Source of the DNA: a virus
Length of the DNA stretch: 43,917 nt
Reading direction: 5' to 3' (one strand)
IMG/VR virus record: IMGVR_UViG_3300046018_000230
Span: 1 to 43,917 of that record
Shown piece by piece: positions 4,840 to 40,199 of the stretch. Each line of letters opens with the position of its first letter. Position 1 is the first letter of the stretch. Position numbers and translations under genes: made by a program. The notes beneath the pieces are model-generated. The model was not told where the DNA came from, did not search any database, and saw nothing but the letters and a program-made list of their open reading frames with translations.

Positions 4840-5178
4840 TTATTTTTCTATATGTTTCTGGACATAAAAAGCCAGTTTGGGAGATAGTTCTTTGACATTA
4901 TCTCCAATAAAACCTGCTTTTCCCACAGGATGATGAATAGAACGGTCCAGTTCATTCTTCAGGATGTAACTCGAAGATTCACCTCCACCACCAACGTAAA
5001 TGCATTTATTAGCATCATCGCGTTCCTCTCCAAGAGAGCCACGCATGACACCTGTTTTAACTGGTGAATCCTTGAAAGCAGCAGGATGCCATTCTACTTT
5101 AGCCCACTCCTCAAGTCCGTCTATAGCTTTGGTGATAATGGATTTCTTGAATTTGGAATCATCCCACTGATAAGTCAT
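4840..5178 (-). CDS. HK97 gp10-like tail completion / head-tail joining protein
   Basis: This 112-aa protein starts at an ATG that overlaps the MuF stop codon (ATGA at 5175-5178), which favours this start over the longer reading from 5208. The central motif SPVKTGVMRGSL is the P-V-x-T-G-x-L/M-R-S signature of the HK97 gp10-like family. It is followed by a beta strand region (CIYVGGGG, YILKNELDRSIHHP) and a C-terminal helix. Family members form part of the connector between head and tail, which agrees with its position between the MuF/terminator genes and the tail tube. Confidence 0.75.
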   Translation of the reverse strand: MTYQWDDSKFKKSIITKAIDGLEEWAKVEWHPAAFKDSPVKTGVMRGSLGEERDDANKCIYVGGGGESSSYILKNELDRSIHHPVGKAGFIGDNVKELSPKLAFYVQKHIEK

Positions 5179-6767
5179 TTTTTCACCAAAATAGTTCCGC
5201 AGGTACAATTAGATGTGAGTATACCATTGCAGATGAGGAACGTACTTATACTTTCAATGTCATATACATAACCATGAAAAGGCTTGATCTTGATGTCGAT
5301 TATATCTTGAAACTCTATCAGTCCGGGATGTCCGTTAAAGGCATATCCAAAGAAATCGGACATGATCGGTGTGTGGTTAACCGAGTGTTGAGAGAGCAAG
5401 GGGTTATTGTCCGTGGGATCAAAGAGGCATCCATTCTTGCCATGTCTCAAACGAGCCCGGAAGAAAGGAGAAGACGCTCGGAGGCCGCTCATATTGCCAA
5501 ACGTGGAGTCCCCAATTCCTTTGAGCATAAATGCAAACTCGCTATCACACGAGAGAGACGGCTTACTTCTGCAATGGCCGACGAGGTATTTCTTTGTAAC
5601 TGCCTTATCAATCGCGGTTTGAAATGCGTCCTCCAAAAAGCCATCGGACCTTATAATATTGACGTTGTCATTATCGATCCCCCCATTGCTATTGAGATCT
5701 TCGGAGGGAATTGGCATAGTACCGGTAGACATGCCCAACGATATCGAGAGCGCATTAAATACATTATCGATTGTGGGTACACACTGGTTATCATCTGGAC
5801 CAGTCGAGCTTGTCCTTTGGGGATTGGGGCAATAGATTATTTGGTCGCCCTTTCTAAGAAGATTGGCGGCGGCAAAACCAAGAGGAGTAAGGAAAAGATG
5901 ATCAGGGGTAACGGAGATTTGTGCTCCGCCAGATATAGTAAGCTCAATGGAGTTCCCGGTAAAAAGGTGACGTATCATCGCGATCCCACCACCGGGCGCT
6001 ATACACCGAGTACCTGGGAGTAGACAATGAGGATGTAAGGGAGGCCCATCTAAGTCGCCTTCTGGAGTACTGAATGTATCTCCGATCTCAGCAGTTTCGC
6101 CATTCATATCCTGACATTCATCACACATATTCGGTAGACCAGATACAACCCATTCCTGCTCATATTCTCCTGGATCTATGACACCACGAGAGACAGCGTT
6201 CTCGTTAGAAATCCGTCGGCCATTATTGCAAGCCATCATGCTTTCGGTTCGACCGATCATGTTGGCCCGATAGTTTAGGAGCCTATCAGCATATTTTGCC
6301 CTCATATCAGCGGCTAGACCATCGTCTGTTCCAGCTATCATCAACTGTTCATAATAGTTCTGGACCGCTACAACATGCTGAGGCAACAACCCTATATTCT
6401 CTTTAATCAGGGCCCGCTGTTCTTGGATCGTTAGTCCTTCTTGGAATGCCCTAAGCTTGATTTGTCGAATATTTTGTAATTGGGTGGAATTGAGATACTT
6501 GATTTGGTCGGTCGCGTATTTTTGTATCCAGGCTTCGGCTTCCGGAGAACGCAAGTCAAACTTAACCCCCATACCTACCAGTTTGCCAATTTCTTCTAAT
6601 TGGCCTTCTCCAGCATCATAGAACGCCAATTTAATCTGAGGTTCGGGATCAAAAGGCTTGATCTTGATAGTCCTTGTCTTTTGCTCTTGAGCTGCCCAAT
6701 CTTCATAAGCCTTTGATATCTTCGCGGCCCACTTGAGGCCAAATTTCTCCACGGGATTTGTAGCCAT
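5175..6767 (-). CDS. MuF-type head morphogenesis protein interrupted by an intein
   Basis: The 530-residue precursor has an N-extein of 247 aa that is a classical SPP1 gp7 / Mu F-like minor head protein: a helical core, then IGRTESMMACNNGR, a zinc-like knuckle (MCDECQDMNGE) and the terminal GPPLHPH. The chain is then interrupted by a 273-residue intein and resumes with CTCGTILVKK. Joining the exteins gives LHPHCTCGTILV, the conserved C-terminal Cys-x-Cys of the family, in a 257-aa product. MuF proteins act with the portal inside the procapsid. Here the gene lies about 12 kb downstream of the portal gene, an unusual separation. The ATG at 6767 has only a weak ribosome-binding site. Confidence 0.88.
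   Translation of the reverse strand: MATNPVEKFGLKWAAKISKAYEDWAAQEQKTRTIKIKPFDPEPQIKLAFYDAGEGQLEEIGKLVGMGVKFDLRSPEAEAWIQKYATDQIKYLNSTQLQNIRQIKLRAFQEGLTIQEQRALIKENIGLLPQHVVAVQNYYEQLMIAGTDDGLAADMRAKYADRLLNYRANMIGRTESMMACNNGRRISNENAVSRGVIDPGEYEQEWVVSGLPNMCDECQDMNGETAEIGDTFSTPEGDLDGPPLHPHCLLPGTRCIAPGGGIAMIRHLFTGNSIELTISGGAQISVTPDHLFLTPLGFAAANLLRKGDQIIYCPNPQRTSSTGPDDNQCVPTIDNVFNALSISLGMSTGTMPIPSEDLNSNGGIDNDNVNIIRSDGFLEDAFQTAIDKAVTKKYLVGHCRSKPSLSCDSEFAFMLKGIGDSTFGNMSGLRASSPFFRARLRHGKNGCLFDPTDNNPLLSQHSVNHTPIMSDFFGYAFNGHPGLIEFQDIIDIKIKPFHGYVYDIESISTFLICNGILTSNCTCGTILVKK
5208..6026 (-). mobile_element. Intein in the MuF protein (273 residues, Cys1 to terminal Asn)
   Basis: Block A is CLLPGTRCIAPGG with Cys1 at codon 6026-6024. 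Block B contains ISVTPDHLFLTPLGF with the expected T-x-x-H. Block F is FHGYVYDIES, and block G is LICNGILTSN followed by the +1 Cys of the C-extein. The penultimate His of block G is Ser here, a variant tolerated in some inteins. The insertion falls between His and Cys of the MuF C-terminal motif, a conserved site as inteins prefer. The roughly 180-residue middle of the intein contains no LAGLIDADG motif. Instead the opposite strand of this stretch encodes a complete homing endonuclease (5274-6023). Splicing activity is inferred from the motifs. Confidence 0.92.
5274..6023 (+). CDS. Vsr/EDxHD-like homing endonuclease encoded antisense inside the intein
   Basis: A 249-aa protein. Residues 8-42 are a resolvase-like helix-turn-helix (SGMSVKGISKEIG, then VVNRVLREQG). 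Residues 58-95 are basic (SPEERRRRSEAAHIAKRG) and resemble the DNA-recognition repeats found beside phage nucleases. Residues 100-178 match a Vsr-type PD-(D/E)XK nuclease: Glu104, YNIDVV with Asp130, IAIEIFGGNWH with Glu141 and His148, then a Gly-Tyr-x-Leu-Val-Ile strand. This is the nuclease class linked to fractured inteins and group I introns. The gene lies wholly within the intein (5208-6026) and starts inside block F. It is codon-aligned with the intein frame, so each codon is the reverse complement of an intein codon. CTTATAC at 5245-5251 is about 26 bp upstream of the ATG, which fits a leaderless archaeal transcript; no ribosome-binding site is seen. Confidence 0.85.
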   Translation: MKRLDLDVDYILKLYQSGMSVKGISKEIGHDRCVVNRVLREQGVIVRGIKEASILAMSQTSPEERRRRSEAAHIAKRGVPNSFEHKCKLAITRERRLTSAMADEVFLCNCLINRGLKCVLQKAIGPYNIDVVIIDPPIAIEIFGGNWHSTGRHAQRYRERIKYIIDCGYTLVIIWTSRACPLGIGAIDYLVALSKKIGGGKTKRSKEKMIRGNGDLCSARYSKLNGVPGKKVTYHRDPTTGRYTPSTWE

Positions 6768-6795: not shown

Positions 6796-6978
6796 ATGAA
6801 ATACATGCAGGGGAAAAAAATACTTGTTCCAATAAGTGCTTTTGATGGCAATTTTAAATTAGGATCGGATGGAAGAATATGGCTACATTCTATTAGGGAT
6901 CTAACGCAAAAAGAACAAAATGAGTATGATGATTACATGCGAACCTTAGCAGCTTCAAAATTAACCGAGAATCGGTAA
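6796..6978 (+). CDS. Small plus-strand ORF beside the MuF gene, possible homing-endonuclease remnant
   Basis: A 60-aa frame fills the gap between the MuF start and the tail terminator gene (6768-6932 has no minus-strand frame) and overlaps the 3' end of 6933-7358. It contains NFKLGSDGRIW, which loosely resembles the opening motif of NUMOD4/HNH-type homing endonucleases, followed by a charged helix (LTQKEQNEYDDYMRTL). A TATA-like CTATTTA lies about 20-25 bp before the ATG. It is AT-richer than its neighbours. It could be a relic of a second endonuclease or a real small protein; the assignment is weak. Confidence 0.4.
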   Translation: MKYMQGKKILVPISAFDGNFKLGSDGRIWLHSIRDLTQKEQNEYDDYMRTLAASKLTENR

Positions 6979-7358
6979 GCCGGACCGCCATCCATATCCA
7001 AGTCTGCTTGAATCGTGAGATCATCGGGTTGTGATCTTGTGGTCTTACTAATTATATAACCAGTGGGATTATTTTCATCTAACCATTGCCTGATAGCTTC
7101 GCACCGAGCAAAAGCATTGAAGGGATCGGTGTATCTTACCTGAACCTGGAAATTTGGGGTATCGATAGCTTGAGGAGTATTATCCGTACCAGCATACCTG
7201 ATAGGTCCCATGCCCGGATAACCTGTTAGACCCCCACCCGCCGGAAATATGGCGACACAATTGACTACATCAAGAGGGAACAGAATAGGATAGATAGGCA
7301 GATCCTGGCCTGGCATGTCCGCCAAAAGGTTAGCCACATCCTCGATAATAGTTACCAT
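6933..7358 (-). CDS. Tail terminator / minor capsid-type neck protein
   Basis: A 141-aa protein with the layout of tail terminator and Minor_capsid_3-like proteins: a short N-terminal helix (IIEDVANLLADM), a strand region IYPILFPLDVVNCVAIFPAGG, PNFQVQVRYTDPFNAFARCEAIRQWL (strand then helix), and a closing antiparallel pair (YRFSVNFEAAKV). Such proteins cap the tail tube before it joins the head. The neighbours MuF and gp10-like protein fit that role. Confidence 0.65.
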   Translation of the reverse strand: MVTIIEDVANLLADMPGQDLPIYPILFPLDVVNCVAIFPAGGGLTGYPGMGPIRYAGTDNTPQAIDTPNFQVQVRYTDPFNAFARCEAIRQWLDENNPTGYIISKTTRSQPDDLTIQADLDMDGGPAYRFSVNFEAAKVRM

Positions 7359-8181: not shown

Positions 8182-8514
8182 TTAAGTTGTTAAGTTGGGC
8201 TTGTTCCTTCGGAATTGTCCAATTTCTCCGTAATCATATTTTCCAAGAGTTCCGCGAAAGTTCTGGAATTCCAGTGCTTTCGAAGCCGGTTTATGGACAA
8301 GTTCTTCTTTTTCTACGTTAGTGACTATCGCAGTGTGATATATTTCACCAAACATATAATATATGGCAATGTCTCCACGTTCTATTTTTGATGAATCAAT
8401 GGGATAACTATTTTTATCAAGAAGCGTTTTCATCTCAATATCAGATACAAATCGCAAATCCTGAAACCATCCACATATAAAGGCAACTAACCCGAAACAA
8501 TTATAATTGTCCAT
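8182..8514 (-). CDS. NlpC/P60 or CHAP-like cysteine peptidase
   Basis: A 110-aa protein that opens at once with the nucleophile motif NCFGLVAFICGW (Cys6), has ERGDIAIYYM as the central strand, and YHTAIVTNV with the catalytic His (His60). This is the minimal papain-fold arrangement of NlpC/P60 and CHAP enzymes, which cut peptide bonds in cell-wall peptides. An in-frame TGA only 5 codons upstream fixes the start near 8514, although no ribosome-binding site is visible. The location in the lysis/tail interval suggests cell-envelope cleavage on entry or exit. Methanosarcinales lack murein, so the true bond is unclear. Confidence 0.65.
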   Translation of the reverse strand: MDNYNCFGLVAFICGWFQDLRFVSDIEMKTLLDKNSYPIDSSKIERGDIAIYYMFGEIYHTAIVTNVEKEELVHKPASKALEFQNFRGTLGKYDYGEIGQFRRNKPNLTT

Positions 8515-9247: not shown

Positions 9248-9343
9248 CTAGAATATTAGATGTATAATCCCGACTAATAAATATAGAATAAATAATATTA
9301 CCAAAATAGATACAACGATTTTCCATCCAGGCAAGTTGACCAT
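9248..9343 (-). CDS. 31-aa single-pass membrane microprotein
   Basis: Reads MVNLPGWKIVVSILVILFI and continues as an unbroken hydrophobic helix to the end. It starts 3 bases after the stop of the coiled-coil/TM gene, with GGGGTTA upstream. Such tiny transmembrane proteins commonly accompany holins. Its position in the lysis interval suggests a role in membrane disruption or its timing, but size alone cannot prove this. Confidence 0.5.
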   Translation of the reverse strand: MVNLPGWKIVVSILVILFILYLLVGIIHLIF

Positions 9344-9346
9344 AGT

Positions 9347-9742
9347 TTAACCCCGTCTTAGATATTCAGACACAAATAATAATATAATGGCGGCATTTAT
9401 TGCCCATAAAACTTTTACTTGCATATGGACACTACTTATTTCACCTTTGATCATTACTCTACAACTATCACCGGTCATAAAGGTGGCCGCTTGTAATCTC
9501 AAATCTTCTCTATATTGGTTTGTCTGCTCGAAATGATTATCAACAGCATGTTTTGCTTCTGCAATCAACCCCTCCGACTTCTTATATTCAGCCCTCAGAG
9601 CTAAGCTCTCTAATCTAATCTTGTCCAGTTCGAGCTTAGTTTTTTCCTCCAGGTTGGCTAATTTGAGTTGAATATAATCGCAAAGCTGGACGTTGATAGT
9701 CTGAGGATATCTCGTTGGCGAATCGTGGGGATAGTCTTCCAT
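9347..9742 (-). CDS. Coiled-coil protein with C-terminal transmembrane anchor, lysis region
   Basis: 131 aa: residues 25-85 are a continuous Lys/Glu/Leu coiled coil (KLANLEEKTKLELDKIRLE, LIAEAKHAVDNHFEQTNQ), followed by a linker and a single membrane helix (VLWAINAAIILLFVSEYL) with a positive end (RRG). The topology of cytoplasmic or external coiled coil plus anchor recalls spanin-like or holin-associated proteins in other phages. It lies between two putative holins. Confidence 0.6.
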   Translation of the reverse strand: MEDYPHDSPTRYPQTINVQLCDYIQLKLANLEEKTKLELDKIRLESLALRAEYKKSEGLIAEAKHAVDNHFEQTNQYREDLRLQAATFMTGDSCRVMIKGEISSVHMQVKVLWAINAAIILLFVSEYLRRG

Positions 9743-9754
9743 AGAAGCAAGCCC

Positions 9755-9976
9755 TTAGCCTTTGATTTCTGGAGGTTCCGCCCAAAGAGCAAGCTGTTTC
9801 AGCAATAACACAAGTAATGCACAAAGCATTAAGATTGTGTTTCCATTAATGTTAAGTCCGAACTGAGCCAAGAATGCAATCACTAGATTGATTGCAGTCG
9901 GGTCGATCATACCGCCAAGAGCCAAGATAAACATGACTATAGCAGCTATGTAGTGTCTATATCCGTCAAGAAACAT
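9755..9976 (-). CDS. Two-pass membrane protein, candidate holin
   Basis: 73 aa with two hydrophobic segments (HYIAAIVMFILALGGMI and TILMLCALLVLLLKQLALW) separated by an amphipathic stretch (INLVIAFLAQFGLNING), and short charged ends. Length and topology match class II holins. It starts 14 bases after the stop of a 26-aa membrane peptide, with GAGGCG upstream. It sits next to the secreted protease gene. Confidence 0.65.
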   Translation of the reverse strand: MFLDGYRHYIAAIVMFILALGGMIDPTAINLVIAFLAQFGLNINGNTILMLCALLVLLLKQLALWAEPPEIKG

Positions 9977-9990
9977 TTAATTCGCCTCAT

Positions 9991-10071
9991 CTAAATATAT
10001 CTAATTGACTCGATTAAGAGTAACAAAAGCATAAATGCGAACGCCCAAGTCAAGAGCGTTGCGAATTTCAT
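9991..10071 (-). CDS. 26-aa membrane microprotein overlapping the protease stop
   Basis: The frame reads MKFATLLTWAFAFMLLLLL then IESIRYI. Its ATG overlaps the TGA of the papain-like protease gene (ATGA), the same coupling used by established genes here. One hydrophobic helix with a positively charged start. It may be a lysis helper or a signal-like peptide. The evidence is coupling and composition only. Confidence 0.45.
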   Translation of the reverse strand: MKFATLLTWAFAFMLLLLLIESIRYI

Positions 10072-11246
10072 GATCTTGTAACTTCTATGTAAGCATCCGT
10101 TCTGTACGGAATCTTAGCAATACCTCGCCAGACTATCCAATATCCTGTACCAGTTTTTAGAACGGAAGCATGTTTTGAATCGGTAGAGAGGAAAGTACCC
10201 GACGGAGTCTTTATAGAGAAGGTGAAAACCTGAGCACTCGGATAGACTCCGAACGGCATGGATGGTTGATAAGCTTTGGTGGTCAGGATGACTTTTTGAT
10301 CTGGTAGCACTTCGCTAAACTGATAAGACCCAGTTGGTCTACTCAGAGTCCTGGCAGAAAAAGTTTTATTGTCAGAAACCGGAGGAGGCGTAGGGCCGGG
10401 TCCCGGTGCCGGAGAAGCGTTCACCATTGCCGTATACCAGGGATAAGATGTACCCATGCCAGCTTCTGCTGCTACAGTATAATCTATTCGGAAGAACCCA
10501 GATTCGCCCCATGACGTGCCCCAAGAGTTCTTGACTATCCAATACTGACCCGGATCATTATAGCCTACAATACAAAGAGCATGACCACCCGCGACATCTC
10601 CAGAATATGTATTGATAATGCCGCCATCATAGTAGAACCAGTTTTGCTCCCAATCAACGCCCGTAACTATTGGCCCGTTCTGAAGAGCTTCTTTTGGAGA
10701 TTTGGTAGTTGACCAGCCAGTGATATAATTCCGGTCTTTGCATGTGCCTGAATCATAACAGTTCTGTGTCTCTATGCCCACGTTTTTAGCTGTGGCATAA
10801 GCTCCTTTATTGCCGGCTCCTTCGAAGTTCCAACCATTAGCACACGATCCACCATGAGAGAAGAACTCCATCTCGGCCAGATCTGGTGTGGGTTTGTTTG
10901 AGTTAGCAGCTATCTCCTCCATAGACTCAATCTGAGCTACAACAGCATGAGCCACACACGAACCGCAACTACCCTGATCCTTGACAGGGGTTACGCGAGT
11001 ACCATTAGCAGTGTTCCGCCAATCAATTGAAGCCGGAAGACCCGACTCATGAAGGTTATACGACAACGAGAGGGGATGATCAGCGCGTTCTAGACCCATC
11101 GAAGGCAGTGGTTGTCCGTCCCAAGCATAAGGATTCATGCTCCAAGTAGCGAAAGTGTCCTCGGTAAGTTGGGCATTACTGCCAGTGGCGCCAACAACCG
11201 CCAATAGCAATAATGCTATAACAAAAAGGTGTTTAGGAATGCTCAT
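10068..11246 (-). CDS. Secreted papain-like (C1A) cysteine protease
   Basis: 392 aa. A Sec signal peptide (HLFVIALLLLAVVGATGSNA) is followed by a short pro-region and a peptidase C1A domain. Gln91 and Cys97 lie in DQGSCGSCVAHA, His222 in GGHALCIVGY and Asn240 in VKNSWGTSWGE, so the catalytic set is complete. Trp after Cys is replaced by Val. After a Pro-rich linker (PAPGPGPTPPP) a C-terminal beta domain of about 95 aa follows, as in archaeal cell-surface proteases. The gene is followed directly by tiny membrane proteins and a candidate holin. In an archaeon with a protein S-layer, this enzyme could fill the role of an endolysin or open the envelope at entry. The role is inferred; the protease family is clear. 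Confidence 0.9.
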   Translation of the reverse strand: MSIPKHLFVIALLLLAVVGATGSNAQLTEDTFATWSMNPYAWDGQPLPSMGLERADHPLSLSYNLHESGLPASIDWRNTANGTRVTPVKDQGSCGSCVAHAVVAQIESMEEIAANSNKPTPDLAEMEFFSHGGSCANGWNFEGAGNKGAYATAKNVGIETQNCYDSGTCKDRNYITGWSTTKSPKEALQNGPIVTGVDWEQNWFYYDGGIINTYSGDVAGGHALCIVGYNDPGQYWIVKNSWGTSWGESGFFRIDYTVAAEAGMGTSYPWYTAMVNASPAPGPGPTPPPVSDNKTFSARTLSRPTGSYQFSEVLPDQKVILTTKAYQPSMPFGVYPSAQVFTFSIKTPSGTFLSTDSKHASVLKTGTGYWIVWRGIAKIPYRTDAYIEVTRS

Positions 11247-11662
11247 AGTTTAGACTCCCAGAGAGCCAGATCGAAATGGATACAATCGGCATAGACCTTC
11301 CAAGCATCGTTTAGGTCTGCCGTCTCATAGGTGAACCGACCGCCGTCACTCCAAGACATGGGCCAATAAACCACTTCGTATTGAGCTATACCTTTACCAT
11401 CTAAGACACGACTGCAATACATCTGGCCTTCAATGTCTGGATCGAAATGCTGGACATTGGGGATCATGAACCTTGAATCTCCGGGTATCGCCATTGGTTC
11501 TGCTTTCACGACCCACATAGACTGTCGGGCAACGGGCACCGGATAAGGTTTTAGGTTGTTGGCATCATTAAAGAATTTTATGAATTCTTCTTTAACGGGC
11601 ACTTTCACATTATAGCCAGTATATTTAGCACAGGCTTTTGGGTATTCGGTTTGTAGTGTCAT
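11243..11662 (-). CDS. Hypothetical protein, 139 aa
   Basis: No signal peptide or membrane segment. Rich in aromatic residues (YPVPVARQSMWVV, VVYWPMSWSDGGRFTY) with a central beta region and a C-terminal helix (LNDAWKVYADCIHFDLALW). It starts behind GAGGTT and overlaps the protease start by 4 bases (ATGA), so it is probably made together with the protease. An inhibitor, chaperone or small virion protein are all possible; I do not recognise the family. Confidence 0.6.
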   Translation of the reverse strand: MTLQTEYPKACAKYTGYNVKVPVKEEFIKFFNDANNLKPYPVPVARQSMWVVKAEPMAIPGDSRFMIPNVQHFDPDIEGQMYCSRVLDGKGIAQYEVVYWPMSWSDGGRFTYETADLNDAWKVYADCIHFDLALWESKL

Positions 11663-12195: not shown

Positions 12196-13863
12196 CTAAA
12201 CAAACGATATACTCACGTCTGCAACCGCAATATTTCGGTCTGCGGTTGTTGGCCCCATAGTTGAGAAGTATATTCTGGGCGTACTACCATCAACGAAACA
12301 AGCCCGATAGATACAAGACGGACTCCAGGTTATTCCAGGTGTCGTCGGTGTGATGATTGGTACAGAGTTAACCTTTTGGTATGACTCGAAATCATCTATC
12401 CAAAATTCGTATAACTGTTCTGCACCCGTTCCGGTTCCTGATAATTGCTGCGCTACCAGCCCAAATATTCGGCCATGATAATTGAATATGGTTGGGTGCC
12501 AGAAGTTCATACCTAGACTTGTTCCAAACCCATAATCAGAATATCCAATAGTTTTAGGTATAGACCAGTTGAGTCCATCTTTACTATAAGCTATCTGCGA
12601 ATCGGCTATAGTGCCCTGATTTCTATAAAGCAAATACCATAAGCCGTCTTTGATAATTATGGCAGGAGACGCCGGCTGAGAAGTACTGATACATATCTCT
12701 TCATCACCTACTACCATTCCGGAAGATATAGACCGTCGGCATAAGTTAGTCTGAGAAGAATTAATATAATGAACATAATACAAATATAAGCTTCCATTCC
12801 AATAAACTAATTCGGTATCTGAATTGTGTTGTGGGGTCCCCGGATCTGGATCTAATGGGTTCGAAATGCCCGCAGGAACTACCCAAGTATAGCCGTCGGT
12901 TGATGCTAGAATACATGGATTCTCTTGGGTATCGTTAGCATAGGGCGTGAACCCCATCCACCAATCATACCCTCCGAACGCTGCACCTCCAGGTCTATAA
13001 AGTACTGAAGGATGTACTGCTCTCCCGGTTCCATCGGGTGTTGTAATCGTGAGGAGTTGGATGTTACCAATGGTAAAATGAAGTTGGCCCATTGTAGGTC
13101 TAACGGTCGCCAATGATTTTGCCGATGCCAACGACCTAGCACTTGATGCTGTTCTCGTGGTTCTTTTTTGTCTTAAATTGTAGACCCCGTTAAATGGGTA
13201 AACATCACCATTAATTATTTGGACTAGCTCGGATGCAGTGAGTACTCTGTTCCAAATGCCAAGATGACTTAATAACATTGAAGGATATGTAGCATACGCT
13301 CCTTTCCCCACTCGGAGAGTATTTGTATCTGGTGCAGCTTGTGGCGTTCCAACCCAATTAGCATTGGTATAAGTAATAGATGTGCCAGTCACACTGGTAT
13401 AATTGCCTCTTTTGCCTGCCAACCCCATTTTTAGAGTTGACCCCATAACAAGCCAAAATATAACAGGAGAATAATTGGCATTTCTATTTCCAGTTAAATC
13501 TCCAGCTATATGATTAGAACCATCTGCCGCCATTTGAAATTTCAGATCAGACCCATGTAAATAAATTTGCCAGCCAATACCACCTGTAGAAAAATTTCCT
13601 AAAAGGATTAAATCGGCGGTTGCCGTCGTTCCTAATAGAGATCCATGAAACATAAGAGACATCGGATAATAATTGTAATAATTGGCAGAAAGCAAATATC
13701 GTGATAGTCCTGTCTTGAAATCGGCTGCTTTCCCATGTTCATCGTACTTGTATGATGTAGAACCTCCGGTCTCTGCTAAAATTGCACCAGAAATTAGATC
13801 AACACGGTTGCCACTAACCTCATCTAATTTCCAGTATGCTTGTAATCCATCCAGTAGTGTCAT
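12196..13863 (-). CDS. Receptor-binding protein: LamG-like domain plus five-bladed glycosidase-like propeller
   Basis: 555 aa. Residues 1-225 form a concanavalin/LamG-type jelly roll (LQAYWKLDEVSGNRVDL, AADFKTGLSRYLLSA, LSHLGIWNRVLTASEL). A linker rich in Ser/Arg/Ala follows (RTASSARSLASAKSLATV). Residues 265-555 resemble the five-bladed beta-propellers of GH43/GH32-like enzymes: HPSVLYRPGG, ENPCILASTDGYTW, ELVYWNGSLYLYYVHY, WYLLYRNQG, IAYSKDGLNWS. Such proteins bind or cut cell-surface glycans. It lies outside the main tail cluster, between neck and lysis genes. Whether hydrolase residues are intact cannot be decided here. Confidence 0.65.
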   Translation of the reverse strand: MTLLDGLQAYWKLDEVSGNRVDLISGAILAETGGSTSYKYDEHGKAADFKTGLSRYLLSANYYNYYPMSLMFHGSLLGTTATADLILLGNFSTGGIGWQIYLHGSDLKFQMAADGSNHIAGDLTGNRNANYSPVIFWLVMGSTLKMGLAGKRGNYTSVTGTSITYTNANWVGTPQAAPDTNTLRVGKGAYATYPSMLLSHLGIWNRVLTASELVQIINGDVYPFNGVYNLRQKRTTRTASSARSLASAKSLATVRPTMGQLHFTIGNIQLLTITTPDGTGRAVHPSVLYRPGGAAFGGYDWWMGFTPYANDTQENPCILASTDGYTWVVPAGISNPLDPDPGTPQHNSDTELVYWNGSLYLYYVHYINSSQTNLCRRSISSGMVVGDEEICISTSQPASPAIIIKDGLWYLLYRNQGTIADSQIAYSKDGLNWSIPKTIGYSDYGFGTSLGMNFWHPTIFNYHGRIFGLVAQQLSGTGTGAEQLYEFWIDDFESYQKVNSVPIITPTTPGITWSPSCIYRACFVDGSTPRIYFSTMGPTTADRNIAVADVSISFV

Positions 13864-15419: not shown

Positions 15420-15959
15420 TCATACAATTAAAGGCGACATCTCAAGATACACTTCTATGTAATCGTATGCCTCTTGACTATGTAACCCAACAGTTTGCGG
15501 TTCTGATTGGGTTGGTCCGAACGTCTCTGAGAGTTTACCGATCGAAAAATGGGTCACTCCCTGGTTCTGTAAGTCCTGCCTCTTCATATTGTCATTCGAC
15601 GAATAATATTGATATAATGCTATAGCTTCCTCACAACAGGCGCTCAAAATATCGTCGGGAACATCAGTTGAAACATATCCATACCCGTACGGGTCAACCA
15701 GGATATTAGTTATGCCCCAAGGATAAATCTCTTCGTTTGATAAGAAATATTTACGCGGAAACTGACGCACCTGAGTACCCAAAAGTTTCATGCCTTGATA
15801 GTTTAATCTATCAATGGTAGCGGTGGCCTTCTGACAATACCATTCTTGTGAAGTGGCAGCCAATGCCTTCAAGGCTATAGCGGCTGCTCTAGGGTCGCCA
15901 CCTATATAAGACTCTAGGATCGTGTCACTCAAAACGTAAGAACTGGTAAAGTCAGTCAT
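15420..15959 (-). CDS. Neck / head-tail adaptor protein (DnaT-like connector family)
   Basis: 179 aa, helical, with the sequence pattern ALKALAATSQEWYCQKATAT then IDRLNYQGMKLLGTQVRQFPR, which is characteristic of the adaptor family found directly downstream of phage capsid genes. It is followed by CCEEAIALYQYY helices. It would form the dodecameric ring under the portal. Starts behind AGAGGATTAA. Confidence 0.7.
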   Translation of the reverse strand: MTDFTSSYVLSDTILESYIGGDPRAAAIALKALAATSQEWYCQKATATIDRLNYQGMKLLGTQVRQFPRKYFLSNEEIYPWGITNILVDPYGYGYVSTDVPDDILSACCEEAIALYQYYSSNDNMKRQDLQNQGVTHFSIGKLSETFGPTQSEPQTVGLHSQEAYDYIEVYLEMSPLIV

Positions 15960-15967
15960 TTAATCCT

Positions 15968-16114
15968 CTATTTACCACCTTTCTTTTTCGGTTCTGATTC
16001 GATCTTTACCGCTTTTCCCCGTGCTAACAATTGTTGTGCTACAGCATCAGGAAAAGACCAAGTTTCGCCGGGAGAGAGTAATATCATTTCTCTCCCGGTA
16101 ATTTTTATGTCCAT
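15968..16114 (-). CDS. Small hypothetical protein, 48 aa
   Basis: The start at 16114 (MDIKITGREMILLSPGETW) follows the stop of the decoration gene by 11 bases and has AAGGA in range. A longer reading from 16162 would overlap that gene. It ends with the basic tail EPKKKGGK. Located between decoration and neck genes, like the small head-associated proteins of many phages. Confidence 0.5.
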   Translation of the reverse strand: MDIKITGREMILLSPGETWSFPDAVAQQLLARGKAVKIESEPKKKGGK

Positions 16115-29072: not shown

Positions 29073-29969
29073 TTAGATACCTAGAAGGCTTCCTACGCCC
29101 GCATTTGCACGGGATTGGCCGAACCTGTCCACACTCGCAGTAGCATAAGCATTAGAGATGGCTATGGTCTTAGGTACATTATAGTACTGAATCCAAGCAT
29201 CTCGTCCATTGGTCGGAGTGTACGCGTAACCTTCCATGTAAGACTCAGCGTTATTGCTAGCGGGTACTATGAATTGACCAACTTTAGCCGAAGAAGAAAC
29301 CGAACTTGCGATTGCCTGAGAACTCATGCTAAGTCCCTTCATGTTCACAGCTTGCCCCCCATTGTACCAGGTTCCGAAGTACGTTTCTGCTTGCCAGCCC
29401 TTAGCGTTGTTCGAAGCATAGGTATGAGTCCAGAAATCGTATCCGCCGTATGCCGCTCCTATAGTCTCGCTTGCAGTAGCTATATTGGCGCTCACAGACG
29501 CGGTCTGAACCACGTTTGCCAAGCTTAATGGTGTATTGTAGTTGTAATTGTAAGAATACAAATTCGTACTAGCAGATAGCCTGGTTTTGGTATTTGTTGC
29601 GCTTACGGACGCTTGAACGTCATTGTAATTGTCTAATGCGCCTGTGATACTGAACGTCTGCTTACCGGTTAATGTTGCCGTATCCATCGTTGATGGCCTT
29701 GATGGCGTCAAGAGCATTGAGTACTTGATATCATGAGCGAAGGGTACTACAAATAATACTTCTACTCTTTTGGTGCTGTCTGCGATTGCATAATTACAAT
29801 TGACAGATCCATCAACCACATGAAGAGCTCCGCCTGCTGAGGTGATAGCTCCAGTCGCGGTTCCCGTTAAACTATTTCCTCCAGTGATAGTTGTTCCCAC
29901 TGCTCCCACTGCTGGAATAGCTGCCAGTACCAGCATTAGGGCCACAAGCCCGTACAATACTTTACTCAT
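29073..29969 (-). CDS. Secreted S-layer-like / cell-surface protein
   Basis: 298 aa from the ATG at 29969 (GTGATT upstream). A clear Sec signal peptide, MSKVLYGLVALMLVLAAIPA, cleaved near VGA. The mature protein is Ser/Thr/Ala/Asn/Tyr-rich, with no Cys-rich active-site pattern except NCNYAIADS, and beta-like (TATLTGKQTFSITGALDNYN, GGYDFWTHTYASNNAKGW). The style matches secreted proteins of methanogenic archaea. It is expressed from the early operon with its own terminator, so it is not an ordinary late structural gene. Roles such as surface modification or exclusion of other viruses are speculative. Confidence 0.65.
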   Translation of the reverse strand: MSKVLYGLVALMLVLAAIPAVGAVGTTITGGNSLTGTATGAITSAGGALHVVDGSVNCNYAIADSTKRVEVLFVVPFAHDIKYSMLLTPSRPSTMDTATLTGKQTFSITGALDNYNDVQASVSATNTKTRLSASTNLYSYNYNYNTPLSLANVVQTASVSANIATASETIGAAYGGYDFWTHTYASNNAKGWQAETYFGTWYNGGQAVNMKGLSMSSQAIASSVSSSAKVGQFIVPASNNAESYMEGYAYTPTNGRDAWIQYYNVPKTIAISNAYATASVDRFGQSRANAGVGSLLGI

Positions 29970-30001
29970 TTCAATCACTTCTCTTGTTTCCAATATCATA
30001 T

Positions 30002-30139
30002 CTAGGAAACTATAATTTTCATAATCGGTTCGTAGAACTTGCATTCTTCAACATTCCACTTACCGACACCACATAGGCATTCATCGTGGTCTAAGGCGCA
30101 TTGCTGACCTTTGCAATTCTTACAAGTCTTAGCAGCCAT
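30002..30139 (-). CDS. Cys-rich zinc microprotein, 45 aa
   Basis: Starts at 30139 with MAAKTCKNCKGQQCALDHDE followed by CLCGVGKWNVEECKFYEP: seven Cys and one His in 36 residues, enough for one or two zinc sites. It lies 2 bases after the stop of another Cys-rich microprotein. No family recognised. Confidence 0.5.
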   Translation of the reverse strand: MAAKTCKNCKGQQCALDHDECLCGVGKWNVEECKFYEPIMKIIVS

Positions 30140-30141
30140 CT

Positions 30142-30243
30142 TCAAGTCACTCGATCGAAATCGTTGGTGTTCTGTTCTTCTGATGGTACAGAGGGATTGC
30201 AACTTTCGCATCCCTCGGATTCATCGCAGTAATCGCACCTCAT
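30142..30243 (-). CDS. Cys-rich microprotein, 33 aa
   Basis: Reads MRCDYCDESEGCESCNPSVP then SEEQNTNDFDRVT. Two CxxC pairs make a rubredoxin-like knuckle; the rest is acidic. The ATG overlaps the stop of the secreted 80-aa gene (ATGA). Confidence 0.5.
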   Translation of the reverse strand: MRCDYCDESEGCESCNPSVPSEEQNTNDFDRVT

Positions 30244-30482
30244 TTGAGACATTCAAAAGCCCCATTAATTCCAAATGCGATTAATATTATAGTCGAATTG
30301 TTTTGCGTCCCAGCAGTCAGCAGGTCCACATTTTCATTCTGAAACATAATGTTGCCCTTTTCGACTAATGGTCCCGGATAAACTCTGTCCGACAGTCCAT
30401 TTCCATCGACTGTATTCCAGGTCGCTCCAGCGATACCGATTCCTGCTAGCAGCAGGGCCAACACAACTATTATGGTTTTCAT
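30240..30482 (-). CDS. Small secreted protein, 80 aa, first gene of the early operon
   Basis: Starts at 30482 behind GGAGGAAA. The signal peptide is MKTIIVVLALLLAGIGIAGA; the mature part is about 60 aa (NGLSDRVYPGPLVEKGNIMF, NNSTIILIAFGINGAFECLK) with a hydrophobic C-terminal stretch that could be a membrane or pilin-like segment. It is the first gene read from the divergent promoter at 30621-30666, so an early function at the cell surface is likely. Confidence 0.6.
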   Translation of the reverse strand: MKTIIVVLALLLAGIGIAGATWNTVDGNGLSDRVYPGPLVEKGNIMFQNENVDLLTAGTQNNSTIILIAFGINGAFECLK

Positions 30483-30620
30483 TTTCCTCCATTCCTCATT
30501 TTGTAACAGGGATTGGCCGGGAGTCGAAAGGAGCAGGAGGAGGTATAGGGGTGAACGCCCCCCGGCCTCATTGTTTCGGATTATTCCTCCTGTCCTGCTA
30601 ACACCTACATGCACTCCTCA

Positions 30621-35059: not shown

Positions 35060-36652
35060 TCAAGTCTTTTTCATGTACTGCAAAATCACGTAAGGAGGAG
35101 TATGATCGATCTGGTTTATCGTAATGTTGTTATCATGACTGTGCCCGGAACTAGCAGCATAAATTCCGGCTGAATTTTTGGCATTGTCGGTATGAGTAAA
35201 CTCCGATCCATAAGCATAACATAGATGCTGATTACTATCGTTCTTTCTATAAGAAGCTATAATAGAGTTTTGCCATTCATTAAAGGCATGTGTATGCGAA
35301 GGCATCTCGGTATCTGCTAATCCATGAGGCATTATTGTTCCCAATGGGTCTGTTGCAGTCATATACTGGCTTCCCCCACTGTTTTTTACAGCATAAGTTC
35401 CACCCGCTCCAACCAAGAATCTGCCGTCCATGTTGTTGTAAGTATCCCAACCGGTAGGCAAAGTATATCCGGTACCGGCATACATAACAATAAGACCAGT
35501 AGGTATTGAAGTTGAGACTATGGCGTCTGCGGTATAACCATCAAGTTTACCGGCATTCATGCCACTACCGATACCTTGGTGCCCGGACCCGAAGAATCTA
35601 TCATCGGCCAGAGTTTTAGTATAATAACGAGCATCATGCCTATGAATTAAAACCGGTTCAATAGATCGGTCGTATTGGGTCTCTAACGAATTCAAAAAAT
35701 CTAATTTTTGGATCTCGGAAAGAGAATGTTCTAACCAAACATTTGGGGTATATACCAAGTTGTTCCTCATATTTGTGGGCATTGCACCAATAGGAGCAAC
35801 TGGCATGGCGGCCTTGAAAGCATTCAGACTATCGGTGGTGGTTTCAACCCGCCAATCAAGATCCCACCCATCACCTGAATAATGCTCTTCGAACCAGACT
35901 AAACAAGAAATTCCGGGATATTTGGTACCCATGTTTTGGAACGTTGTGGTAATCCAGGTAGGTTTTGATCCGCCTGACTCCTGGCAAGAACATTCGCAAA
36001 CAATTAGTGGTTTGCTTGTCTTTGATATCAAAGCATTATACGAATCCAGGAATATCTGATCAAATGTTTGCCATATATTGCTATCATAAGTGCCCCAATT
36101 GTATCCATCGATACCTATCCAATCAACATATTGGTCTCCCGGATAATATTGAGTCCATGTGTCGAGCATAGCGGTTTCGTTGGTGGTGTTATTAGGACAC
36201 CAGACCCATTTTAGGTTTGTGGCGTTATTCGCAATTGCCTTATCATGAAGATATCGCCAAGCTTGGATGAACTGGCCGGTTGTATTTTCGTTTACCCCCT
36301 CAGACCAGGCCATCCAATTGCCATTCATTTCATAAAGAGGCCGGAATAGGACTGTATAAGGCAACGCCGCTAACGCCTCGAACCAAGCATTGATCTCGGT
36401 ATCCCAGGACCCATCTAAGATAGTAGACAATTTATATTCTGGTTGGGTGGGACCGCTTGTGGTTGGATCGCAAAAGTCCCAAGAGAACATAATTCTTCGG
36501 TCGGTTGTATATGGTAAGAAATCAGATATATAAGTTTCGTAAAGGGATAGATAATTAATGTTCCAATAGTAACTAAATAAGTTAACTTTCCTACCAATAA
36601 TTGTCTCAAAACTATCTATATCTTGAGAATAAGATCCAAGATACAACACCAT
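35060..36652 (-). CDS. GH26-like glycosidase fused to a tail collar domain (depolymerase fibre)
   Basis: 530 aa. Residues 1-290 form a glycoside hydrolase family 26-like barrel: RIMFSWDFCDP, PYTVLFRPLYEMNGNWMAW with acid/base Glu108, LKWVWCPNN, WIGIDGYNWG, and the nucleophile Glu220 in KPLIVCECSCQ. Residues about 340-530 are the fibre stem and collar (IEPVLIHRHDARYYTKTLAD, SIPTGLIVMYAGTGYTLPTG, DGRFLVGAGG, MPSHTHAFNEW). GH26 enzymes cut beta-mannans and related polymers, so the virion likely degrades a mannan-like coat on its host. Catalytic residues appear intact; the usual His before the acid Glu is Tyr. Confidence 0.8.
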   Translation of the reverse strand: MVLYLGSYSQDIDSFETIIGRKVNLFSYYWNINYLSLYETYISDFLPYTTDRRIMFSWDFCDPTTSGPTQPEYKLSTILDGSWDTEINAWFEALAALPYTVLFRPLYEMNGNWMAWSEGVNENTTGQFIQAWRYLHDKAIANNATNLKWVWCPNNTTNETAMLDTWTQYYPGDQYVDWIGIDGYNWGTYDSNIWQTFDQIFLDSYNALISKTSKPLIVCECSCQESGGSKPTWITTTFQNMGTKYPGISCLVWFEEHYSGDGWDLDWRVETTTDSLNAFKAAMPVAPIGAMPTNMRNNLVYTPNVWLEHSLSEIQKLDFLNSLETQYDRSIEPVLIHRHDARYYTKTLADDRFFGSGHQGIGSGMNAGKLDGYTADAIVSTSIPTGLIVMYAGTGYTLPTGWDTYNNMDGRFLVGAGGTYAVKNSGGSQYMTATDPLGTIMPHGLADTEMPSHTHAFNEWQNSIIASYRKNDSNQHLCYAYGSEFTHTDNAKNSAGIYAASSGHSHDNNITINQIDHTPPYVILQYMKKT

Positions 36653-38473
36653 TTAAGTCCACCCCTTTATCTCTGTGAAAGTTATTTGTAAAGTTTCCAA
36701 TCCGGTTTTGTTTCTTACGTATTCCTGTTTATCTAGTTCTATGCCACTTCCTGGAATCGAAGAACATTGTTCACCGCCCCACAAACCGAGATGACTTATA
36801 TTTCCCACGGCTTCACTTGCGGCAATGAAACAAGTTACAAAATCTCGGTCGGTCTCGTTTTCAACAGACAAAACCGATTTTCGGAATATTTCTATTCCAT
36901 CTCTATAAATCGCCACATATAACCATCTATCCACAACCGCGAATCCGGGTATAAGGGGTTCGCCGGGCAAGACCGAATCAACCTCAGAATATGCGAATGG
37001 ATTGGGATAATCCGTCAGATACCAAGTATTCATTAATCCTAAGTAAACAAGAACGTTTGCTTCGTTTATCGTACCAAGTTCTATAATGCCCGTCCTGGCC
37101 GCTAGATCCCTATCTACATAGTAGTTCTCCCAAGCCGTGTCCGCCGGGCCGTCACATGCAGTAACATGATAAGAAAGAACTCCTCCATCAGTAGTTATAC
37201 TTAGATCTGTGATTAGATACTCTTTTGTAGGTTGAGAAGCGTCTGGCAGTATGGTTCCAGCGGCCAGGTATTTCCCGATTTCTTCCACCGTTTCGAATTC
37301 TATTTTTTCAGCATCTCTAGAATACCTAGCCAATTTAGCTTCACAAGCGTCTATAGCTGCCGCCTGAGTCGTTACCATTGTGCCGGTAAGTACAGATTCA
37401 ACGATGCCAGATGTCCCATCCAATAAGGCTCTGATAGTTATTTCTTCAAAATCTGAAGCCGCGTTTATGACATCATAAAGACCATAATATTCTATGTGCC
37501 ATGTATCAGTCAATTCCAAGATGGTTCCAGTATTGTCTTGGGTGATTGTGTCTGAGCCTTCATTCCAATAGAAATCATGACTGCCATCCGGATCGACTTG
37601 ACCAATTCCAACGGTTTTCCCAATCCCATTAACTGCGATAATTGGTTGACTGGCTAGTTGACGACCTACCTTGAAAGTACGGTTGCTTCCGTCTCCTTTT
37701 TGTTCTTCGGTGATTAGGTTAGTAGTACCCTTACCACCGATTAGGAATTGACGATTCCTGTAAGAATTGTTACCTTTTGTTAAGGCGGCTAAGAAAGGAG
37801 TTGCTGTTTTGGTAGGTATAAACTCGGATATATCATAATCACATGTATACGTGGATTGGGGCACGAAATAGAGTTTTTTCTCTTGATCTATGAACCAAAT
37901 GAACCCGGAATATTCTGACAAAGAGTTTAAGGCATCAGTGGCGGTACAATAACCGGCCCGAAACTCTTTGACCAAATCCCCATCATCAACCTGTCCAATG
38001 GTAACACCTTCATCTATCAATATAGTACTAATTATTAATTTTACGATATCTCCTGCCAATTGGTTTGATACTGCTAAATATACTAATCTTTTGTCTAATA
38101 GCCACGTCCAATCAATAGCAGTAATAGTATGAATCCGACAGTCAATTGGGCCTTCCAACCGTTGGACTTTAACACCACCACCAGACGCAATAACGCCCGC
38201 AAAAATTATGTCATAATCTTCATCGCGAATAGTAACTACAGAACCTTCAACAAAATCTAGTATTGATGTAGCATCATAAACTTGGAAATCTACTGTTGAC
38301 CTATGATCAGAAGAATGATTTATACTGAAATTGTTTAACAATATTATAGAATCATGAAAATTACATTCCTCTACCCAGGTCCCCTCTGGATCATCGATCC
38401 ATCTTGAAAATGGATCAACTTCCCAAGTGTCTTGATCAAAACATTCTGTAGAACCAATAGTGACAGTAAACAT
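36653..38473 (-). CDS. Tail hub / tail-associated protein
   Basis: 606 aa, beta-rich. The opening (LNNFSINHSSDHRSTVDFQV, VVTIRDEDYDIIFAGVIASG) and the following RIHTITAIDWTWLLDKRLVY resemble gp27/Tal-type hub proteins at the distal end of siphovirus tails. A central GFIWFIDQEKKLYFVPQST is typical for this family. The C-terminal region (LAARTGIIELGTINEANVL) is probably a fibre-attachment extension. It precedes the fibre genes in transcription order only by way of the Kelch-like and coiled-coil genes. Confidence 0.65.
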   Translation of the reverse strand: MFTVTIGSTECFDQDTWEVDPFSRWIDDPEGTWVEECNFHDSIILLNNFSINHSSDHRSTVDFQVYDATSILDFVEGSVVTIRDEDYDIIFAGVIASGGGVKVQRLEGPIDCRIHTITAIDWTWLLDKRLVYLAVSNQLAGDIVKLIISTILIDEGVTIGQVDDGDLVKEFRAGYCTATDALNSLSEYSGFIWFIDQEKKLYFVPQSTYTCDYDISEFIPTKTATPFLAALTKGNNSYRNRQFLIGGKGTTNLITEEQKGDGSNRTFKVGRQLASQPIIAVNGIGKTVGIGQVDPDGSHDFYWNEGSDTITQDNTGTILELTDTWHIEYYGLYDVINAASDFEEITIRALLDGTSGIVESVLTGTMVTTQAAAIDACEAKLARYSRDAEKIEFETVEEIGKYLAAGTILPDASQPTKEYLITDLSITTDGGVLSYHVTACDGPADTAWENYYVDRDLAARTGIIELGTINEANVLVYLGLMNTWYLTDYPNPFAYSEVDSVLPGEPLIPGFAVVDRWLYVAIYRDGIEIFRKSVLSVENETDRDFVTCFIAASEAVGNISHLGLWGGEQCSSIPGSGIELDKQEYVRNKTGLETLQITFTEIKGWT

Positions 38474-38481
38474 TTAAACCC

Positions 38482-39282
38482 TCAAGAATGTTTAATCAAA
38501 GCATCTACTTGTTTGGTATCTGGCATGCCTTTCCATTGAGCAAACTTCTTACTACATCCCCGGAACTTTTCGGCCATTGATATCAGAAAATCAATCTGTC
38601 GTACGTGAGTCGGTTCTTGGTCAAGAGACAGCATCTCCGATTCAAGATTCAAATAATTAGTAACCTCTACCTGAGCCACCGTCCCATTTATTCCTATTTG
38701 GCTAAAATATATTTGGTTTCCTTCGTCGATAAATCCGCTGTGCGCGCGAGCAGCGTTAAGTCCTTGCTCGAACGCTTTTGTAATATGATAAGCTTCTTCC
38801 TCGGCCTCAAAATCCAGTTCATCAAAATCTTGTAAGTTGTTCTCTTTCATAACAGATTCGTACTGAAGACTATAATTGGTCAATTTGCGTATAGCTCCGC
38901 CCACGTTCTCCATGATACAAGATATTTGCCATTCCAGTTCTTCGATTTCTAGATTTGTTCTTTGCTTTTCAATCGAATCAACAGATTTAATAAGTTTAAT
39001 TCGTTTCTCTTCAACATCTATTTTCTTTTTCTCAATAGAATAATATGCCTCTCCCAGAGCCAATCTGGTATTCTTCATTTCGGCTAGGATCTGCCTTAAG
39101 TTCCGTATAGGAGTGATATGCGATACGGTAAGCATATTATCCATGAATTGAGATTGGGTCTTCTGGAATAATTGGGTTGCTCGTTGGATTTCTGGGAAAC
39201 CCCGATCTATGATATTAAGCATGGGAGTGTATTGGTTTTCAAGCGATATTTTTCGTTCAAAAGGTATCAAGTTGTTCATCAT
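38482..39282 (-). CDS. Coiled-coil tail-associated protein, 266 aa
   Basis: Residues 60-130 form a long coiled coil (LALGEAYYSIEKKKIDVEEK, SIEKQRTNLEIEELEWQISC), and more helices follow (FEAEEEAYHITKAFEQGLNA). A short beta segment (NQIYFSQIGINGTVAQVEVT) and a charged end close it. It overlaps the upstream Kelch-like gene by 4 bases. Possibly a fibre adaptor or chaperone; no family recognised. Confidence 0.5.
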   Translation of the reverse strand: MMNNLIPFERKISLENQYTPMLNIIDRGFPEIQRATQLFQKTQSQFMDNMLTVSHITPIRNLRQILAEMKNTRLALGEAYYSIEKKKIDVEEKRIKLIKSVDSIEKQRTNLEIEELEWQISCIMENVGGAIRKLTNYSLQYESVMKENNLQDFDELDFEAEEEAYHITKAFEQGLNAARAHSGFIDEGNQIYFSQIGINGTVAQVEVTNYLNLESEMLSLDQEPTHVRQIDFLISMAEKFRGCSKKFAQWKGMPDTKQVDALIKHS

Positions 39283-40199
39283 AATCCCCCATGACTATCT
39301 GAACATCCTGCCGAGTTGTATTTTGCGACGGTGAGATTACCAAAGTCAGTAGCATTTCCGAGAGTTGCTATGGTCACATAATCAATTGTGTCGGACGCGG
39401 CTGCGATATATCCTCCGCCGAATACGCCACGAATGGAAGACGAACACGAAGCGTTACCATACCTAGCAACCGACAAATTGCCAAAGTTAGTAGCATTTCC
39501 GAGAGTTGCTATGGTCACATAATCAATTGTGTGAACCGCGGCTGCAACGTATCCTCCACCGAATATACCACGAACGGAAGACGAACACCCGGCCAGGAAA
39601 TATCTTGCTACTGACAAATTTCCAAAGGTAGTAGCAGCTCCAGTGGTCGTGATAGTCACATAATCGATGTAGGCAACATATGTTGTAGTTTTTCCTCCAC
39701 CAAATATGCCACGAACCTTAGACGAGAGGCCAGCCAAATCAGATCTTGCATGTGACAAAGCTCCAAATGTAGTAGCATTTCCGAGAGTTGCTATGGTCAC
39801 ATAATCGATTAGACTTGATGGCCCCGTGGTATATCCTCCACCAAATAAGCCACGAACTGAAGAAGATAAACCAGTAAGTTTCTCTCTTGCGAGCGTAAGG
39901 TTTCCGAAGTCAGTAGCATTTCCGAGAGTTGCGGTAGTCACATAATCGATTACATCAGAGAAAGACGACCCAGCATTTCCGCCCCCAAATATGGAACGAA
40001 CTGAAGATGATAAAGCAGCAAGTGAATATCTAGCTAATGTTAGGTAACCAAACGAATGCGCATTTCCCGTCGTAGAAATGGTTATGTATTCTATAACGCT
40101 TATTAATGTGGAAGAATTAAGTTGTCCTCCTCCAAATAACCCACGTCCAGCTGCTGCCGCCGTGGCCAGGATGTGACCAATACGATTTATATAGTTCAT
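39279..40199 (-). CDS. Kelch-like repeat protein (six ~48-residue repeats)
   Basis: 306 aa made almost entirely of repeats of about 48 residues with the pattern SSSVRGIFGGG, I-DYVTIATLGNAT and FGNLxVARY. Six units can be counted, several nearly identical at DNA level (for example near 39350, 39490, 39775 and 39920). The spacing and Gly-Gly-Gly turns fit a beta-propeller of the Kelch/RCC1 kind. It is between the fibre-like 387-aa protein and the coiled-coil protein, so it is probably a distal tail component that contacts host surface ligands. Confidence 0.7.
   Translation of the reverse strand: MNYINRIGHILATAAAAGRGLFGGGQLNSSTLISVIEYITISTTGNAHSFGYLTLARYSLAALSSSVRSIFGGGNAGSSFSDVIDYVTTATLGNATDFGNLTLAREKLTGLSSSVRGLFGGGYTTGPSSLIDYVTIATLGNATTFGALSHARSDLAGLSSKVRGIFGGGKTTTYVAYIDYVTITTTGAATTFGNLSVARYFLAGCSSSVRGIFGGGYVAAAVHTIDYVTIATLGNATNFGNLSVARYGNASCSSSIRGVFGGGYIAAASDTIDYVTIATLGNATDFGNLTVAKYNSAGCSDSHGGL

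Follow-up and report, generated by a model that had tools for sequence, protein, structure and literature searches.

A secreted papain-family protease coupled to small membrane proteins: a candidate lysis cassette in a tailed virus of a probable Methanosarcinales host

Genes and Features of the Locus

The DNA analyzed here, called the window, is the whole of IMG/VR record IMGVR_UViG_3300046018_000230 and comprises 43,917 bases. An earlier note on this sequence described five genes between 9248 and 11246, in which a protease gene is directly followed by a gene for a 26-aa membrane peptide, with an ATGA overlap. All five ORFs and the overlap were found as described, on the minus strand. With the gene immediately upstream, they are:

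11243 to 11662, minus strand: 139-aa protein of unassigned function, ATGA-coupled upstream of the protease, no family match
10068 to 11246, minus strand: secreted C1A papain-family protease, 392 aa (Pfam Peptidase_C1, E 3e-30)
9991 to 10071, minus strand: 26-aa single-pass membrane peptide (hydropathy), its start overlapping the protease stop (ATGA)
9755 to 9976, minus strand: 73-aa two-pass holin-like protein (TM 11-29 and 48-66)
9347 to 9742, minus strand: 131-aa helical protein with a C-terminal membrane anchor (TM 107-125), XhlA-like in layout
9248 to 9343, minus strand: 31-aa single-pass membrane peptide (hydropathy 3.32)

The protease and 26-aa genes overlap at 10068-10071, and the gaps from the 26-aa gene onward are 14, 12, and 3 bp. 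A second ATGA overlap (11243-11246) joins the 139-aa gene to the protease, and the cassette is thus part of a longer operon. This operon is the structural one, and a putative adhesin is encoded nearby (12196-13863). Downstream of the cassette, at 8182-8514 on the minus strand, is a 110-aa protein with a YNCFGLV motif and weak matches to CHAP, Amidase_6, and NlpC-P60. This is possibly a second enzyme of papain-like fold in the virus of a probably murein-free host, and could serve as a second or alternative lysin.

The Papain-Family Protease

The protease belongs to family C1A (papain), with the papain fold and the Gln-Cys-His-Asn set of catalytic residues all present (Q91, C97, H222, N240). The best PDB match is FBSB (2e-25), and papain-fold structures were also matched (1aim, E 4e-14; cruzain, mexicain, and others). 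Hydropathy places an N-terminal hydrophobic signal segment at residues 7-25, within a predicted signal peptide of about residues 1-25. The earlier note had called this gene a secreted papain-like protease with an intact Cys-His-Asn set, and the Pfam match, the residues, and the signal segment all agree. Between the signal peptide and the catalytic domain (70-265) lies a pro-segment of ~45 aa. We found no Pfam match to the classical I29 inhibitory prodomain, but I29 is absent from some C1 members and the assignment to C1A stands. A Pro-rich linker follows the catalytic domain and leads to a C-terminal domain of ~95 aa, for which a low-confidence structure model predicts strands at 307-391. No relatives of this C-terminal domain were found among the ~12,000 ORFs (at least 60 aa) of the fetched loci. 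A single-protein scan of viral contigs with the window protease likewise gave no match.

Small Membrane Proteins

By hydropathy, the 26-, 73-, 131-, and 31-aa proteins contain one, two, one, and one membrane segments, respectively. None of the four has relatives among the ~12,000 ORFs (at least 60 aa) of the fetched loci, and the 73-, 131-, and 139-aa proteins have no Pfam or PHROG match. Holin-endolysin cassettes have a small protein of one to four TM segments adjoining the enzyme, a description that the 73-aa protein fits with its two segments. It matched no holin profile in Pfam or PHROG, although, given how far holins diverge, the lack of a match does not exclude one. XhlA is small, helical, and membrane-anchored. 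The 131-aa protein resembles this type of partner (small, helical, with a C-terminal TM segment, beside the holin) in layout only. A structure model of the 131-aa protein shows three long helices (14-53, 59-89, and 94-130), but its mean pLDDT is only 63 and we take nothing from it beyond the helix content.

The earlier note had read these genes as a holin/spanin-like set. The holin-like part is consistent with the two-pass topology of the 73-aa protein. The spanin part did not hold: a two-component spanin would be expected to have an N-terminally anchored coiled coil, whereas the anchor of the 131-aa protein is C-terminal, and no lipobox was seen in the cassette. Because of the C-terminal anchor, and because the host probably has no outer membrane, a spanin is unlikely and an XhlA-like layout fits better.

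Five genes with hydrophobic segments stand consecutively in the cassette, among 62 genes of which 10 have such segments (permutation P = 0.002). When ORFs shorter than 40 aa are ignored, the run is three among 59 genes (P = 0.09). Both P values are rough, since the genes were picked manually from the ORF table and some soluble proteins, too, are flagged by the hydropathy rule. Nonetheless, five such genes in a row are unlikely to occur by chance. In dinucleotide shuffles, an open and equally hydrophobic frame arose in 0.6% of cases for the 26-aa peptide and 0.005% for the 31-aa peptide. A 31-aa peptide this hydrophobic is thus hardly ever obtained from shuffled DNA (5 in 100,000); for the 26-aa peptide the contrast is less marked.

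Viral Genome and Probable Host

The window encodes the genes of a tailed virus: an SU10-type capsid protein, an SPP1-type portal, a terminase, a D5-type primase, and tape-measure-like and baseplate proteins. The host assignment is based on one of these:

36653 to 38473, minus strand: baseplate/tail protein, matching Methanosarcinales virus vir515

Among 50,697 phage records, vir515 is the one strong relative of this baseplate protein (33% over 92% of its length, 2e-76); the next match, to a Thermoanaerobacterium phage, is at 22%. Three tail collar proteins, the portal, the terminase, and the major tail protein also match vir515. The window thus has its tail/receptor-binding module in common with a virus assigned to the Methanosarcinales, and from this module its host is probably a Methanosarcinales archaeon. 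The archaeal host proposed in the earlier note is supported by the same match. For a ParB-like protein and for the primase, a match was found in a Methanoculleus virus. The genome is mosaic, since among annotated records it is actinophages that have the nearest capsid protein and terminase, although the tail module matches vir515. We found no related provirus in the host class: the baseplate protein matched 0/238 genomes of the class of Methanosarcina, in a search without a positive control. A lytic virus would leave no provirus.

Several other genes of the window are of interest in their own right. The minor head protein (5175-6767, minus strand) contains an intein at about residues 250-518. 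Antisense to it, and almost exactly inside the intein, is a 249-aa ORF (5274-6023, plus strand) with an HTH and an MTES_1575 (VSR-like) nuclease domain (E 5e-8), which looks like a homing endonuclease encoded opposite its own intein. One tail collar protein (35060-36652, minus strand) has at its N-terminus a domain of glycoside hydrolase family 26 (2e-15), which suggests a polysaccharide on the host surface. A 306-aa protein (39279-40199, minus strand) is made up of nearly regular repeats in which FGGG and DYVTIATLGNAT recur, and is perhaps a beta-propeller-like fiber. Outside the structural module, secreted proteins of 296 and ~81 aa (from an internal ATG) are predicted at 29073-30044 and 30240-30614 on the minus strand. 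The 296-aa protein (29073-30044) has no relatives in the genome contigs or the 238 Methanosarcina-class genomes.

Membrane Gene Pairs in Tail-Related Viruses

The position of the cassette can be compared between viruses by means of a nearby gene:

6933 to 7358, minus strand: connector-type protein, homologue of vir515 15638-16009, used as positional anchor

In vir515, two small proteins are encoded directly before the connector homologue, one a membrane protein of 61 aa and the other a C-terminally anchored helix of 70 aa. This pair is at the same genome position as the window cassette, but the protease is absent. At the corresponding place a second tail relative, contig G001, encodes a membrane protein of 148 aa, a helix of 108 aa anchored at its N-terminus (best PHROG match an Rz-like spanin, E 0.0014), and two secreted proteins, but likewise no protease. 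In both viruses the membrane/helix pairs stand between head and tail-connector genes. Across 42 mostly tail-related viral records, many of them short fragments, we found no C1 protease (0/42). The survey of Methanosarcinales viruses for the same gene string, as proposed in the earlier note, gave a mixed answer: the C1 protease is in none of the 42 records, but many of these are incomplete. A search for nearer viruses through the minor head protein yielded only contig G015, whose corresponding region has no clear cassette, and the Methanofastidiosa virus vir519 has no convincing membrane pair. In G001, a 523-aa putative adhesin stands at the place corresponding to window 12196-13863 and is adjoined by a reverse transcriptase (locus L050, 12895-13989; RVT_1, 2e-18), a possible diversity-generating retroelement.

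C1 Proteases beside Membrane Genes in Other Viruses

A scan of viral contigs for C1 proteases identified contig G044. Its secreted C1 protease (484 aa) carries an F5/8C domain, a binding domain also seen in virion proteins. The protease gene overlaps by 16 bp a gene for a 64-aa membrane protein, which in turn overlaps by 4 bp a gene for a 77-aa helix with a C-terminal TM segment. Hydropathy gives one segment each in this 64-aa protein and the 61-aa protein of vir515; a second, weaker one can be seen by eye in both. The capsid protein of G044 matches only the haloarchaeal HVTV/HCTV viruses and Methanofastidiosa vir519, and since these are all archaeal viruses we take G044 to be archaeal as well. 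Beyond the protease, one weak and possibly chance match, and the SU10 capsid family, G044 and the window have no genes in common. A second contig, G041, with no host assigned, encodes a C1 protease with two C-terminal TM segments followed by a 128-aa anchored helix protein. By predicted topology, then, the core of the gene string recurs in one unrelated archaeal virus (G044), with a fused version in G041. The likeness among the small proteins of the different viruses is one of layout, with no sequence homology.

A small TM gene directly follows the protease at 7/44 viral C1 loci, compared with 24/486 control genes (P 0.0096); this count covers the downstream neighbor only, and two loci (L071 and L074) had been noticed before counting. 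At the other 37 of the 44 loci, no such gene adjoins the protease on the downstream side. In Gordonia and Arthrobacter phages (Sixama, Aleemily, GMA2, and Mufasa8) a C1 protease overlaps or adjoins the holin in the lysis cassette. The vir515 pair, the G044 string, and these bacterial C1 proteases beside holins support the lysis-cassette anatomy proposed in the earlier note. Another lysis-cassette context for a C1 enzyme is seen in viral contigs L094 and L095, whose host looks like a diderm bacterium: there the C1 protease gene is directly followed by an apparent Rz/Rz1 spanin pair (an N-anchored protein and a lipoprotein).

Origin of the Proteases

A tree was built from 108 catalytic domains. 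The window protease stands on its own in it, and that of G041 falls among other viral sequences. For the G044 protease, the sister sequence (100/99) is a protease from a Ca. Methanogasteraceae (Methanosarcinales) genome, which reads by eye like the same C1 plus F5/8C design. A single clade of the window, G044, and G041 proteases was rejected (p-AU 0.016; the group was named after the tree had been seen). Since the three proteases lie on separate branches, the simplest reading of the tree is that C1 proteases have been recruited repeatedly to the same kind of membrane-gene context. Four C1 proteases of host genomes that fall near that of the window in the tree (L160, L164, L171, and L173) were considered as proviral cassettes and rejected, as they have no signal peptides and no membrane pair. 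Two or three genes on from the archaeal proteases L160 and L171 is a gene for a protein that, judged by eye, resembles a chagasin-type cysteine-protease inhibitor.

Comparison with Known Systems

The cassette is most similar in anatomy to the holin-endolysin-XhlA cassettes of tailed phages, in which an enzyme stands beside a holin-like protein and a small anchored helical protein. An example of these cassettes is xhlAB-xlyA of PBSX (PMC5589764). It differs from them in having a secreted C1 protease instead of a murein hydrolase, the enzyme gene first, two extra micropeptides, and probably an archaeal host, and there is no sequence homology. No murein or pseudomurein hydrolase scored above the cut-off in the window, where the only such match is the weak one to NlpC/CHAP. 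The window protease may work like an endolysin, yet we do not class it as a holin-endolysin enzyme. The C1 proteases of Gordonia and Arthrobacter phages are alike in overlapping or adjoining a holin gene, but they have no signal peptide, lie on a distant branch, and occur alongside murein-cutting lysins. We know of no test of their role.

Enzymes of archaeal viruses that act against the host envelope include the pseudomurein endopeptidases PeiP and PeiW of psiM1 and psiM100. These cut pseudomurein, and no such domain was found in the window; Methanosarcinales, to our knowledge, have no pseudomurein. The virus-associated pyramids (PVAP) of SIRV2 and STIV also provide egress past an S-layer, but they consist of one self-assembling membrane protein and no protease, and no PVAP homologue was among the Pfam and PHROG matches of the window. 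The baculovirus cathepsin V-CATH is likewise a virus-encoded C1A protease acting at the release stage (PMC9965964). It belongs, however, to a eukaryotic virus and together with a chitinase promotes host liquefaction, not attack on a single-cell envelope (PMC9965964).

Proposed Role and Alternatives

We lean, without strong conviction, toward a role in egress: the cassette would serve a tailed archaeal virus for lysis of its host, in a holin-endolysin-XhlA layout whose wall enzyme is a secreted protease of the papain family. The enzyme family, export signal, membrane topology, gene coupling, and recurrence that this reading draws on are seen in or predicted from the sequences. Late in infection, the protease would be exported by the host Sec system and mature through loss of its short pro-segment. 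Secreted endolysins are a known design in bacterial phages. The 73-aa protein and the anchored 131-aa protein, with one or both micropeptides, would permeabilize or depolarize the membrane. The protease would then cut the proteinaceous envelope (S-layer or sheath) that holds the cell together, and the cell would burst.

Counting against lysis are the absence of sequence homology among the small proteins of the different viruses, the lack of a C1 protease in the 42 mostly tail-related records (many of them fragmentary), the 37 of 44 viral C1 genes with no small TM gene next in line, and the possible alternative lysin at 8182-8514. So does the location of the cassette within a structural operon, adjoining the putative adhesin, and it is because of this location that the main rival is an enzyme of entry or envelope remodeling, a virion-associated or released protease that cuts the S-layer or a receptor (in entry, receptor shedding, or superinfection exclusion), with the small membrane proteins as unrelated late genes. 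The operon is continuous with the structural genes, the protease is ATGA-coupled to the 139-aa protein, and the F5/8C domain of the G044 protease has its counterparts in virion proteins. A signal peptide is, however, out of place on a protein that would need to be packaged in the cytoplasm, and an unrelated virus again has its protease gene coupled directly to membrane genes. On this evidence we regard such a role as unlikely, though worth keeping in view.

Rather less probable is that the host is a murein-walled bacterium. The locus would then be a phage lysis cassette of the usual kind, one that includes an accessory C1 protease as those of Gordonia phages do, and the NlpC/CHAP-like protein at 8182-8514 would be the endolysin. 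The affinity of the capsid protein and terminase to actinophages, whose lysis cassettes contain C1 proteases, and the weak matches of the 8182-8514 protein are in favor of this reading. Against it, no bacterial phage comes near vir515 as a match for the baseplate and collar proteins. The window proteins that were scanned gave no amidase, muramidase, or transglycosylase above the cut-off, and the Gordonia C1 proteins have no signal peptide and branch far away.

The 26- and 31-aa micropeptides resemble small membrane toxins in layout and the extra C-terminal domain of the protease has no relatives among the fetched loci, as might suit a non-lytic toxin, signaling, or defense module in which, for example, the protease activates a membrane-disrupting peptide or competing cells are inhibited. 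We consider this improbable, as the position and layout match the lysis modules of related and unrelated viruses. A chance neighborhood of a captured host protease and unrelated small ORFs would agree with the lack of homologues of the small proteins among the fetched loci and of the protease in related viruses, but is very hard to reconcile with the membrane-gene run (P 0.002), the micro-ORF shuffles, the G044 recurrence, and the enrichment at viral C1 loci.

A broader proposal than the lysis reading of this one cassette is that tailed viruses of S-layer or sheath archaea share a general lysis system, in which a papain-family protease, either secreted or tethered to the membrane, is coupled to a holin-like/XhlA-like membrane pair, the protease having been recruited independently several times (window, G044, and G041), once from a Methanosarcinales host gene. 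We offer it tentatively and consider it somewhat doubtful.

Significance for Archaeal Virus Egress

It is an open question how tailed viruses exit from archaea whose cells are covered by protein instead of murein. In a 2015 review, archaeal viruses were proposed to use holins together with S-layer proteases, with no example named; according to its authors, isolated archaeal viruses had yielded no holin gene and S-layer-degrading enzymes were unknown (Quax and Daum, 2015; PMC4456609). A 2025 survey of 129 archaeal dsDNA viruses could detect lytic proteins in only 10.9%, and reported predicted holins and few enzymes (PMC12596118). A C1 protease cassette of this kind was not described in the literature that we searched, mostly outside subscription journals: the full text of the Gordonia lysis-cassette paper does not mention the cysteine protease, and no such cassette appears in papers on archaeal tailed viruses or on ANME-1 viruses. 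The mechanism was thus previously proposed without an example, and the window cassette is a testable candidate for one. It offers concrete, cloneable candidates that recur in unrelated viruses, so that the hypothesis can be tested directly. If the lysis reading is true, the protease would be a tool for the gentle lysis of methanogens. The cassette also suggests a rule by which to search for other such systems, namely a secreted C1 protease coupled to a holin-like gene and an anchored-helix gene.
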